Under the pieces are notes generated by a model. It saw nothing but the letters and a program-made list of their open reading frames with translations. It was not told the origin of the DNA and searched no databases. A DNA stretch of 64,000 nt, taken from contig JACDNV010000002.1 of NCBI GenBank assembly GCA_017656425.1, positions 62,001-126,000 of the forward strand, in the 5' to 3' direction. Below are positions 58,478-61,354 of this stretch, piece by piece. The position numbers and the translations under genes were made by a program. Origin of the DNA: Candidatus Neomarinimicrobiota bacterium. Its GTDB lineage: Bacteria > Fidelibacterota > UBA2242 > B5-G15. The stretch's first letter is position 1, and every line of letters starts with the position of its first letter.

Positions 58478-58495
58478 AAATTTGCGTGCAAATTT
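58478..58495. promoter_or_regulatory. Perfect palindrome, possible operator upstream of the polyamine operon
   Basis: AAATTTGC-GT-GCAAATTT (8-base arms, 2-base centre). Eighteen bases is the usual size of a dimeric repressor site. It lies about 110 bases before the leader ORF. No clear -35/-10 pair is visible between 58440 and 58580, so the promoter position is uncertain. Confidence 0.45.
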
Positions 58496-58587
58496 TTAGC
58501 GGGTTTTTATTTAAGTAGGATAAATGAATGATAGAGAATAAATTAATAAAAATACAAACAAGTCAATATAGCCGTCCTGTTATAAAG

Positions 58588-58656
58588 ATGGGGGTTATAT
58601 TGGTAGAAGCGTATGCTTCTACCACCACATTGAGTACCTACCTTTCCCAGGGATAG
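58588..58656 (+). CDS. Putative 22-codon leader peptide of the polyamine operon
   Basis: ATG 58588 opens MGVILVEAYASTTTLSTYLS then QG and TAG at 58654-58656. The stop codon lies inside the 5' arm of the terminator, so a ribosome ending here would cover that arm. A 10-base hairpin (58601-58610 with 58615-58624) is inside the ORF. There is no good Shine-Dalgarno sequence (only AAAG), which is the main argument against translation. It contains no arginine, and methionine only at the start, so any sensing would be by the nascent peptide, not by codon supply. Confidence 0.35.
   Translation: MGVILVEAYASTTTLSTYLSQG
58601..58624 (+). other. Leader RNA hairpin
   Basis: TGGTAGAAGC (58601-58610) pairs with GCTTCTACCA (58615-58624) around a GTAT loop, ten base pairs without mismatch. 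CTACC at 58638-58642 could compete for GGTAG at 58602-58606, giving an alternative fold. Confidence 0.7.
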
Positions 58657-58675
58657 TACAAACTATCCCTTTTTT
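58649..58675 (+). terminator. Intrinsic terminator/attenuator in the polyamine leader
   Basis: AGGGATAGT (58649-58657) pairs with ACTATCCCT (58662-58670) around a four-base loop and is followed by TTTTT. It lies 76 bases before the speD start and 260 bases after the previous gene remnant, so termination here would control entry to the operon (or end a small RNA). Confidence 0.8.
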
Positions 58676-58750
58676 ATTTTTCCACAAACATAGTTCTTTG
58701 ATTCCGGTTGAGGAGAATTTGGTAACTCTGAAAGGGAAAGGAGGTGAGCC

Positions 58751-59158
58751 TTGCAATCCTTAGGTCGTCAAATACTTGCCGAATTTTATGATTGTGATTC
58801 TGAAATACTCAATAATGTTGAGTTGATAGAGAAATATATGGTTGAAGCATGTAATGAAGCAGAGGCTACTATAGTTAAAACTGTTTTTCATGAATTCAGT
58901 CCACATGGAGTTAGTGGTGTTGTTGTTATCGCAGAATCTCATGTTGCTATTCATACCTGGCCTGAGTATAACTATGCTGCTGTGGATGTTTTTACTTGCG
59001 GTGATACAATATCACCGTGGACTATTTATAAATATCTTGAAAATAAATTGAGAAGTAAAACAAGTAGTATGATGGAATTAAGACGCGGTTTATTTGATGA
59101 TGTATATCAAAAAGTTTACCATAAACCACAGGAAAGCGTGGCTGTTGAGGTTAAATGA
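58751..59158 (+). CDS. speD: S-adenosylmethionine decarboxylase proenzyme (prokaryotic class 1B)
   Basis: 135 residues from TTG 58751, preceded by GGAGGTGA (58740-58747), the strongest ribosome-binding site of the region. LGRQILAEFYDCDSEILNNV, TVFHEFSPHGVSGVVVIAES and HVAIHTWPEYNYAAVDVFTC match SpeD. Ser63 is the self-cleavage site that becomes the pyruvoyl cofactor. It provides decarboxylated SAM, the aminopropyl donor for SpeE. TTG may reduce expression. Confidence 0.95.
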   Translation: MQSLGRQILAEFYDCDSEILNNVELIEKYMVEACNEAEATIVKTVFHEFSPHGVSGVVVIAESHVAIHTWPEYNYAAVDVFTCGDTISPWTIYKYLENKLRSKTSSMMELRRGLFDDVYQKVYHKPQESVAVEVK

Positions 59159-59176: not shown

Positions 59177-59647
59177 ATGGCAGTAATTAAGACACCGACA
59201 AAATACTTTTTGGTAAAAGGATGTGCAGAGGGTGAGTCGGAACTAAATAGCTTTGATAACGCGTTAATAGATGCAGGGGTAGGAGATACAAATCTTGTAA
59301 AACTTAGCAGTATCTTGCCCCCAAAATGTCAAAGAATTGAACCAATAAAATTGCCTCATGGGTCTTTGGTTCCAATAGCATATTCAAAAATAACATCATC
59401 AGTTCCTGGAGAGGTTATTTCTGCTGCTGTTGCAGTAGGAATTCCTGAAAATGAAGATTTAGCTGGACTCATAATGGAATATTCTAATAAAGCACCGTTA
59501 GATATTGTAGAAAAACGTGTTAAAGAGATGGTAATTGATGGATTTAAATTTAGAAATCGTACTCTAAAAGAGATAATATCAATCGGCGCTACCATAGAAG
59601 TTAAAAAAGTAGCCACGGCCTTCGCAGGGGTTGTGCTATGGGATTAA
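59177..59647 (+). CDS. pdaD: Pyruvoyl-dependent arginine decarboxylase
   Basis: 156 residues. Start TPTKYFLVKGCAEGESELNS, then SFDNALIDAGVGDTNLVKLS; Ser44-Ser45 in KLSSILPP is the autocatalytic cleavage site. PHGSLVPIAYSKITSSVPGE and YSNKAPLDIVEKRVKEMV also match the archaeal/chlamydial type. It makes agmatine from arginine without PLP. It lies 18 bases after speD and 17 before speE. Confidence 0.95.
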   Translation: MAVIKTPTKYFLVKGCAEGESELNSFDNALIDAGVGDTNLVKLSSILPPKCQRIEPIKLPHGSLVPIAYSKITSSVPGEVISAAVAVGIPENEDLAGLIMEYSNKAPLDIVEKRVKEMVIDGFKFRNRTLKEIISIGATIEVKKVATAFAGVVLWD

Positions 59648-59664: not shown

Positions 59665-60516
59665 ATGAGTATATGGTTTGTTGAAGATGATATGAGGGTT
59701 TATGGGCTACTATTTAAAATAAAGAAGACGTTATTTACCGGAGAAAGTAAATATCAGAAGATAGAAGTTTTTGAAACTGAAGAAATGGGGAGACTTCTTG
59801 CGCTTGATGGTATGGTAATGAGTTGTGAGTATGATGAATTCTCATATCATGAAATGATTGCGCACGTACCTCTGTATACTCACCCAAATCCGAGAGAAGT
59901 TTTAATTGTTGGTGGAGGAGATGGTGGTACTGCAAGGGAAGTTTTAAAGCATGAAATAGTTGAATCTGTGGACATGGTTGAAATAGATGCTGAAGTTGTT
60001 GAGGTAACCAAGAAGTATATCCCATCGCTTGGTCGGTATTTTGATAATCCAAAATTAAGAATATATATTGAAGATGGATTAAAATATGTAGAAAAAACGA
60101 ATCGTAAATATGACATTATTTTAATAGATGGATCAGATCCTGTTGGACAAGCAGTCGGTCTTTTCTCTAAAGAATTCTATACTAATTGTAAATCAATTTT
60201 AAAAGATGACGGTATCATGGTCTCCCAGACTGAGACACCCTATGATGTAACCTTAAAGAAGCATGTTCCAGGTATATATAGAAACTTAAAATCAGTTTTT
60301 CCTGAAACTAGAATGTATCTTGCCCATGTTGCATGTTATCCATCGGGAATGTGGTCTTTCTCTTTTTCCTCTAAAAAGTATGATCCAATAAAAGATTTTC
60401 AAAAAGAGAGATATGAGAGAGATAATCTTGATCTGAAATATTATAATTCCGCTGTGCACAAATCCTGCTTTTCATTGCCAAACTTTGTAAAAAAGATGAT
60501 AAATGAAAAATCTTAA
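59665..60516 (+). CDS. speE: Spermidine synthase (aminopropyltransferase)
   Basis: 283 residues. LALDGMVMSCEYDEFSYHEM, ILIVGGGDGGTAREVLKHE-type motif (VLIVGGGDGGTAREVLKHEI), VEIDAEVVEVTKKYIPSLG and LIDGSDPVGQAVGLFSKEFY are the family motifs, including the catalytic DGSDP aspartate. It transfers an aminopropyl group from decarboxylated SAM to putrescine or agmatine. Its 3' end overlaps speB by 14 bases. Confidence 0.95.
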   Translation: MSIWFVEDDMRVYGLLFKIKKTLFTGESKYQKIEVFETEEMGRLLALDGMVMSCEYDEFSYHEMIAHVPLYTHPNPREVLIVGGGDGGTAREVLKHEIVESVDMVEIDAEVVEVTKKYIPSLGRYFDNPKLRIYIEDGLKYVEKTNRKYDIILIDGSDPVGQAVGLFSKEFYTNCKSILKDDGIMVSQTETPYDVTLKKHVPGIYRNLKSVFPETRMYLAHVACYPSGMWSFSFSSKKYDPIKDFQKERYERDNLDLKYYNSAVHKSCFSLPNFVKKMINEKS

Positions 60517-61354
60517 AAGAATAAACTTCCTTGGATTTGACTCATCTTATCCTGAGTCTGACATAGTTTTCTTTGGGATACCTTTTGATGGTACCTCCAG
60601 CTATAGAGCAGGAAGCAGATTTGCACCCAGTTTCGTGAGGGAGGCTTCCGAGAGTATTGAGGCATATTCTATTAGTCTTAATAAGGAGATTGGAGAAGAA
60701 AAAATCTGTGATGTTGGTGATATTTTATTGACGTATGGAAATGCAGAGAGATCAATTAGAAAGATTGGTTCCGTTGTTAGAAAATTTTTAAGGGATAATA
60801 AGAAAATTTTTGCTGTAGGCGGGGAACATTTAATTACTCTTCCGATAGTTAAAGAATTGTATAAGAAATATAAAGATGTCAGAATTATTTATCTTGATGC
60901 TCATGCTGATTTGAGGGATAATTATCTTGGAGAGAAATATTCTCATGCGACGGTCCTCCGACGAATTTGCGAGTTTTTTCCTTGCGAGAATGTGTTCGTA
61001 TGGGGGGTTAGATCGGGAGAAAAGGAAGAAATAACTTTTGGTAAGGAGAATCTAAACTTTTATTTAATTGAAGAGTATGAAAGTTTCATCAAAAAAGTTA
61101 AAAATATACCGAAGGATACATCTGTTTATATTTCCCTTGATCTTGATGTTCTTGACCCTTCTATCATTCCTGGAGTAAGTAATCCTGAACCTGGTGGCGT
61201 TGAGTTTAATGAGCTTTTAAAAATTTTATATGAATTTAGATCAAATAATGTTGTAGGTATGGATGTTGTTGAATTGACTCCACACTACGATAATTCTGGT
61301 GTTTCTAACATAGTTTGTGCTAAATTAATTAGAGAGATGGTTTTGATATTATAA
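60503..61354 (+). CDS. speB: Agmatinase / ureohydrolase
   Basis: 283 residues. IVFFGIPFDGTSSYRAGSRF, GGEHLITLPI, DAHADLRDNYLGEKYSHATV and SLDLDVLDPSIIPGVSNPEP contain all manganese ligands of the arginase fold. It hydrolyses agmatine to putrescine and urea, or, in a thermophile-type route, aminopropylagmatine to spermidine. Sequence alone does not separate these. It is coupled to speE and to the next gene (one-base overlap). Confidence 0.93.
   Translation: MKNLKRINFLGFDSSYPESDIVFFGIPFDGTSSYRAGSRFAPSFVREASESIEAYSISLNKEIGEEKICDVGDILLTYGNAERSIRKIGSVVRKFLRDNKKIFAVGGEHLITLPIVKELYKKYKDVRIIYLDAHADLRDNYLGEKYSHATVLRRICEFFPCENVFVWGVRSGEKEEITFGKENLNFYLIEEYESFIKKVKNIPKDTSVYISLDLDVLDPSIIPGVSNPEPGGVEFNELLKILYEFRSNNVVGMDVVELTPHYDNSGVSNIVCAKLIREMVLIL

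Follow-up and report, generated by a model that had tools for sequence, protein, structure and literature searches.

Control of S-adenosylmethionine (SAM) decarboxylase by upstream peptides is textbook knowledge in plants and animals, where the uORFs of eukaryotic AdoMetDC mRNAs (mammalian MAGDIS and the plant AdoMetDC uORF) encode conserved peptides that act on scanning ribosomes. In Erm-type attenuators and TnaC, a ribosome stalled on the leader peptide alters access to a ribosome-binding site or a terminator. Among bacterial polyamine genes, translation of the E. coli mdtU leader is required for spermidine induction of mdtJI, which encodes a spermidine exporter, and MdtU is conserved at its C-terminus, over a stretch with predicted pairing to the ribosome-binding site of mdtJ (PMC7815308). 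The one other leader peptide among bacterial polyamine genes, cited in the same paper, is SpeFL of E. coli and Salmonella speF, an ornithine-sensing arrest peptide (PMC7815308). Within the limited literature searched, no leader peptide, uORF, attenuation mechanism or riboswitch was found described for bacterial speD.

The ORF considered here, for which we propose the name SpeDL, precedes speD in the window, the 64,000-nt stretch of Candidatus Neomarinimicrobiota DNA that was analysed. Its architecture is closest to that of E. coli mdtU-mdtJI: both are short uORFs about 100 nt 5′ of a polyamine gene, with premature transcription termination in the leader (PMC7815308), which for SpeDL is predicted. 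They differ in that mdtU is gammaproteobacterial and controls an exporter, not SAM decarboxylase, and in that termination is Rho-dependent for mdtU and appears intrinsic in the window; the function of mdtU is experimental, whereas that proposed for SpeDL is read from sequence. As far as PMC7815308 describes it, SpeFL resembles SpeDL in being a leader peptide of a polyamine biosynthetic decarboxylase with control by ribosome position, and differs in its gene and in working through Rho and RNA rearrangement. A first-pass annotation had judged the leader to be unlike speFL, and the sequences agree: an HMM of 30 SpeDL peptides scores SpeFL at 0.0 bits and MdtU at 0.4 bits, with no homology to either. 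The eukaryotic AdoMetDC uORFs share with SpeDL an upstream peptide and the same enzyme activity, with no sequence relation, which is functional convergence at best, and Erm-type attenuators and TnaC differ in peptide, gene and presumably ligand, with fewer RNA segments in SpeDL. Given the lack of peptide homology to MdtU and SpeFL and of a literature description, SpeDL is best described as a new family of peptides with a mode of action of a known type, on a gene whose control in bacteria is apparently undescribed.

The speD leader ORF and its homologues

Matches to TIGR03330, TIGR00286, TIGR00417 and TIGR01230 confirmed that the leader is followed, as first annotated, by speD (SAM decarboxylase, 58751–59158, TTG start), the gene for pyruvoyl-dependent arginine decarboxylase (59177–59647), speE (spermidine synthase, 59665–60516) and speB (agmatinase, 60503–61354), all on the + strand, as are the leader elements described below. 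Where a 22-codon ORF (58588–58656) with no clear Shine-Dalgarno sequence had been proposed, the frame is open throughout from an ATG at 58528 to the stop codon ending at 58656, giving 42 codons (MIENKLIKIQTSQYSRPVIKMGVILVEAYASTTTLSTYLSQG and stop), and a modest Shine-Dalgarno-like AGTAGG (58514–58519) lies at 8-nt spacing from the ATG. Homologous ORFs begin at an equivalent ATG, GTG or TTG, usually with a clear and stronger, GGAGG-type site. A start at TTG 58600, with GGGGG as its Shine-Dalgarno sequence, was rejected because the homologues start further upstream, behind a good Shine-Dalgarno sequence, and conserve the N-terminal part. In the sister genome (L017/G001, a Neomarinimicrobiota relative) the same frame is open; its 3′ two thirds are nearly identical to the window, including the terminator and T-run, while the N-terminal part of the ORF and the intergenic region before speD are much less alike. 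The unannotated leader ORF is, judged by its homologues, a member of a leader-peptide family.

These homologues lie directly 5′ of speD in 30 genomes from about three phyla: the window and one Neomarinimicrobiota relative, 2 members of a third group, and 26 Cloacimonadota. In an initial collection of 95 speD loci, no other group had the uORF. When the core was compared by BLAST with speD loci of other phyla, 2 Cloacimonadota and 2 further genomes showed similar segments in the corresponding position, and each segment is part of a 43–52-codon ORF with the conserved C-terminal motif. HMMs built from 7 and then 15 peptides, searched over 125 Cloacimonadota genomes, recovered the uORF in 26 of them, every match at E < 1e-4 lying 96–197 nt before speD on the same strand; a separate speD search of the 125 returned an identical set of 26 genomes. 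In its own phylum the uORF was found in the window and sister only, and in a DNA-level search of 245 own-phylum genomes the sister was the sole real match, the rest being T-rich chance matches. Profile matches within longer own-phylum ORFs (448–467 aa; L168–L172) and a marginal match in G363 were discarded as unrelated and not beside speD. The uORF is single copy and always in the speD leader, never elsewhere.

Two subfamilies can be distinguished. Group 1 (window, sister, L117, L119, L127, L118 and L120) has the motif [R/K][E/G]V.LVEA.AFT.TLS and stands ahead of four genes, the operon speD-ArgDC-speE-speB; in group 2 the motif is F.RIH...ALY..L....DDEEVL.LSAF.ATLTP, ahead of speD-speE. The pathway common to all members is SpeD plus SpeE, from SAM to spermidine. 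Peptide conservation falls in two blocks, F.RIH..EALY and DDEEVL.LSAF.ATL.P, and the C-terminal end is variable. In the window the conserved C-terminal part, a proposed stall site, begins with LVEAYASTTTLS and spans 58600–58656.

In pairwise comparisons among Cloacimonadota, pS was 0.5–0.8 and nonsynonymous divergence 0.14–0.28, with dN/dS about 0–0.22 in most informative comparisons and one exception (L138/L129, 0.47). These low ratios argue that the peptide is selected. The window clade gave dN/dS 1.5 over all codons, an uninformative value drawn from two genomes only and from a peptide with a poorly conserved N-terminal part, and the case for the window's own peptide leans on homology to its relatives. 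These comparisons show a genuine peptide that is under selection and linked to speD. Searches of Pfam and NCBIfam gave no member-wide match, the best being chance matches at E 0.05–0.2 to single members.

Leader hairpins and pairing with the speD Shine-Dalgarno region

The 131-nt leader folds at −40.1 kcal/mol, compared with −23.8 ± 3.6 for shuffles (z −4.6). Folding bore out a previously noted 10-bp hairpin inside the ORF (58601–58624, TGGTAGAAGC GTAT GCTTCTACCA), and this hairpin is more stable than synonymous recodings in each of the 7 group 1 members (p 0.009–0.07 each). The intrinsic terminator noted at the end of the ORF was likewise recovered (58649–58676) and is the sole one in the region. 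It consists of a perfect 9-bp stem (hairpin 58649–58670; −12.2 kcal/mol, 0/100 shuffles as good) followed by a T-run, and the leader stop codon (58654–58656) lies within its 5′ arm. Both elements are kept in the sister genome, where the terminator stem shows compensatory changes (AGGGATAGT/ACTATCCCT vs GGGGATAATAG/CTATTATCCCC); a hairpin preceding them, around 58564–58600, is absent there. Terminator position differs among groups. A terminator-like hairpin lies between uORF and speD in 18 of the 30 leaders, at varying distance after the stop codon, and is absent in the others. This distribution suggests translational control as the ancestral or general mode, with transcription termination as an extra layer added in some lineages.

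The last codons of the uORF are complementary to the speD Shine-Dalgarno sequence, a relationship that the first-pass annotation had missed. In the window, an anti-Shine-Dalgarno segment (58635–58648, with a bulge at 58640) is predicted to sequester the speD Shine-Dalgarno region (58734–58746) in a helix of 13 bp with one bulge that encloses the terminator; the duplex is worth −22 to −23 kcal/mol and is present in the leader fold. Since single leaders gave only weak significance when the anti-Shine-Dalgarno was synonymously shuffled, we compared own with swapped pairs over the 30 leaders. The last 60 nt of the uORF pair with their own speD Shine-Dalgarno at −14.05 kcal/mol and with swapped partners at −10.82 (z −7.4; 0/50,000 permutations as good, p < 2e-5), in a test that treats related leaders as exchangeable; 20 nonredundant leaders, a set that reduces but does not remove the effect of kinship, gave z −6.2. 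Control segments comprising the preceding 63 nt (p 0.38) and the following 63 nt (p 0.76) gave no signal, and by the same measure the speFL tail pairs weakly with the speF Shine-Dalgarno (−7.0 kcal/mol).

Both sides of the pairing change together, as in ACCTCTTATTT/AAATAAGAGGT (L151), ACCTCGCT/AGCGAGGT (L128), TTTTACCTCC/GGAGGTAAAA (L127) and CCTCTGTGG/CCACAGAGG (L162). In L132 and L165 the anti-Shine-Dalgarno persists after a shift of a few codons, pointing to selection on RNA pairing as distinct from the peptide. Pairing is missing, among the 30 leaders, in L118/L120 and L122; an intergenic CTCCC appears to take over as partner of the Shine-Dalgarno in L118/L120. By the swap test, the uORF carries in its last codons an anti-Shine-Dalgarno whose sequence covaries with that of the speD ribosome-binding site. 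A competing hairpin between an internal GAGGAGGT and the anti-Shine-Dalgarno is plausible in the L131/L132 folds and inseparable from codon constraint, and is not claimed. Co-occurrence combined with own-versus-swapped base-pairing tests of this kind can both reveal small ORFs that annotation overlooks and validate them.

Possible modes of speD control

The locus was originally described as a polyamine operon preceded by an attenuator-like leader that contains a short ORF. This is right and holds across phyla in ORF homologues, purifying selection and covarying pairing; the outcome named beforehand as telling against it, that relatives would conserve neither ORF nor hairpins, did not come about. 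The leader architecture therefore stands, and the ORF start, the absent Shine-Dalgarno sequence and the overlooked sequestration of the speD ribosome-binding site are what had to be revised. A leader-peptide attenuator implies a short translated leader ORF encoding a selected peptide, indicated here by homologues in 30 genomes and by dN/dS mostly < 0.25 in informative pairs, and an exclusive RNA structure overlapping it, indicated by the covarying tail/Shine-Dalgarno pairing and, in the window clade, by a terminator that overlaps the stop codon. A third hallmark of the class, ribosome stalling regulated by a signal, is a prediction for SpeDL. The best reading is a ribosome-position switch that would act by translational attenuation and, in the window, by transcription termination as well. 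We think it probable that the position of the ribosome on the conserved 42-residue peptide sets speD expression; what we infer from sequence and modelling is the stalling, its signal and which state is ON or OFF.

In simulations that folded each leader with 30 nt masked at each codon, a ribosome with its P site in the C-terminal motif (TL) raised accessibility of the speD Shine-Dalgarno by 0.14 in the mean, though only about one leader in two opened by > 0.1 and accessibility fell in the GAGGAGA subgroup (L156–L162); elsewhere in the ORF the change was −0.02 to +0.04. The densest peptide conservation ends at this same motif, as would be expected of an arrest peptide, and we therefore propose that ribosome position provides an ON switch. 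With no ribosome on the uORF tail, the nascent RNA would terminate at 58676, and any readthrough mRNA would hide the speD Shine-Dalgarno in the 13-bp helix (OFF). On the C-terminal motif, whether pausing or in the course of translation, a ribosome would cover the anti-Shine-Dalgarno and allow speD to be made (ON), and one near the stop codon would additionally cover the 5′ arm of the terminator. The motif is TL[S/T/K]-P in most relatives and TLSTYLSQG in the window, where a modelled stall at TLS (P site 58633–58635) would free the Shine-Dalgarno and leave the terminator 5′ arm exposed; helix and terminator would both be masked only with the ribosome at the last two or three codons or the stop. 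A pathway metabolite (SAM, decarboxylated SAM, putrescine or spermidine) is probably sensed by the nascent chain inside the exit tunnel, by analogy with SpeFL and ornithine, and might cause or relieve the pause. A family of about 50 residues from candidate phyla, fully speD-linked and with a covarying anti-Shine-Dalgarno, SpeDL offers testable arrest-peptide candidates for polyamine or SAM sensing. More tentatively, SpeDL could be a new bacterial arrest-peptide family that senses spermidine, decarboxylated SAM or SAM within the tunnel and controls SAM decarboxylase in transcription, through the terminator, as well as in translation, through Shine-Dalgarno release, a counterpart of the eukaryotic AdoMetDC uORF alongside at least one further, unrelated uORF class (in Balneolaceae, below).

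The terminator overlaps the uORF stop codon strongly in the window and sister and more weakly in L127, an arrangement also expected of pyrBI-like translation-coupled attenuation, in which a pacing ribosome that reaches the stop blocks the terminator; such a leader would read the general translation rate, and its peptide sequence would matter little. The peptide, however, shows strong conservation between relatives whose synonymous sites are saturated, and in most Cloacimonadota members the hairpin either lies about 30–60 nt 3′ of the uORF or is missing, although peptide and anti-Shine-Dalgarno are kept, so we regard this explanation as unlikely. It is quite unlikely, too, that the uORF encodes a small protein acting in trans, perhaps as a regulatory subunit of SpeD or SpeE, with the RNA pairing serving only to couple its translation to that of speD. 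Conservation along two blocks, not just near one end, would suit such a protein, but the product is very short, always encoded in single copy in the leader and variable at its C-terminal end, and the doubling of its last codons as anti-Shine-Dalgarno is typical of cis-acting leaders.

Purifying selection on the peptide in relatives speaks against a riboswitch without translation and against a small RNA alone, both offered earlier as alternatives. A structured RNA that senses SAM or polyamine directly would account for the stable fold and for an in-ORF hairpin that outdoes synonymous recodings, but selection acts at the codon level, group 2 is without an equivalent conserved hairpin, and the Shine-Dalgarno pairs covary while the peptide stays. 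Rfam gave no match in the window or, at gathering scores, in 20 relatives (a permissive threshold returned only implausible snoRNA and microRNA noise), and we hold a riboswitch to be very improbable. That the terminator (58649–58676) closes a separate small RNA, or the transcript of the gene upstream, and that speD is served by a promoter of its own further downstream, is scarcely credible: no canonical sigma-70 promoter was called 5′ of the window leader, as this would predict, but the uORF and speD travel together across phyla, clear TTGACA-type promoters lie 5′ of the uORF in several relatives (e.g. TTGACA-17-TATTGT, L138), and the pairing partner of the speD Shine-Dalgarno is 5′ of the terminator.

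Other elements upstream of speD

A perfect palindrome, AAATTTGCGTGCAAATTT (58478–58495, not assigned to a strand), lies 5′ of the leader in the window and is kept in the sister genome, and might serve as an operator. A regulon search found no polyamine-related second site for it. A second exact copy in the sister genome (G001, L201:1420–1437) lies between convergent gene ends, and thus no polyamine regulon is evident.

Short ORFs of other kinds precede speD elsewhere. In Balneolaceae (L031–L061), an unrelated 16-codon uORF, M[DAG]R.K[RS].[FL][VI]N..L[TS].T and stop, lies about 30–80 nt before speD at 15 distinct loci. Its mismatches by codon position (0.27, 0.10 and 0.40) form a coding signature, with the third position the most variable and the second the least, and speD in bacteria may therefore have recruited upstream peptides more than once. 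In Bacteroidetes MAGs (L030, L038, L044 and L062), a conserved DNA block, TTTTTTCATTTTATGACCAACCC, is found 40–90 nt before speD, and a common reading frame is not clear. Three Nitrospirota loci (L074, L076 and L080) have a 17-codon ORF, MSTSLHIKSALLG[LR]PFR and stop, with a strong Shine-Dalgarno sequence, 169–357 nt before speD. Deltaproteobacterial L063 and L065 carry similar short ORFs starting M..HGK[KR]L about 290–315 nt before the gene, and in L049 a 30-codon ORF, MNMRNPETCPRLKLFIAKCFIYKRIFVFRI and stop, with a very strong Shine-Dalgarno sequence, lies 117–209 nt before speD.
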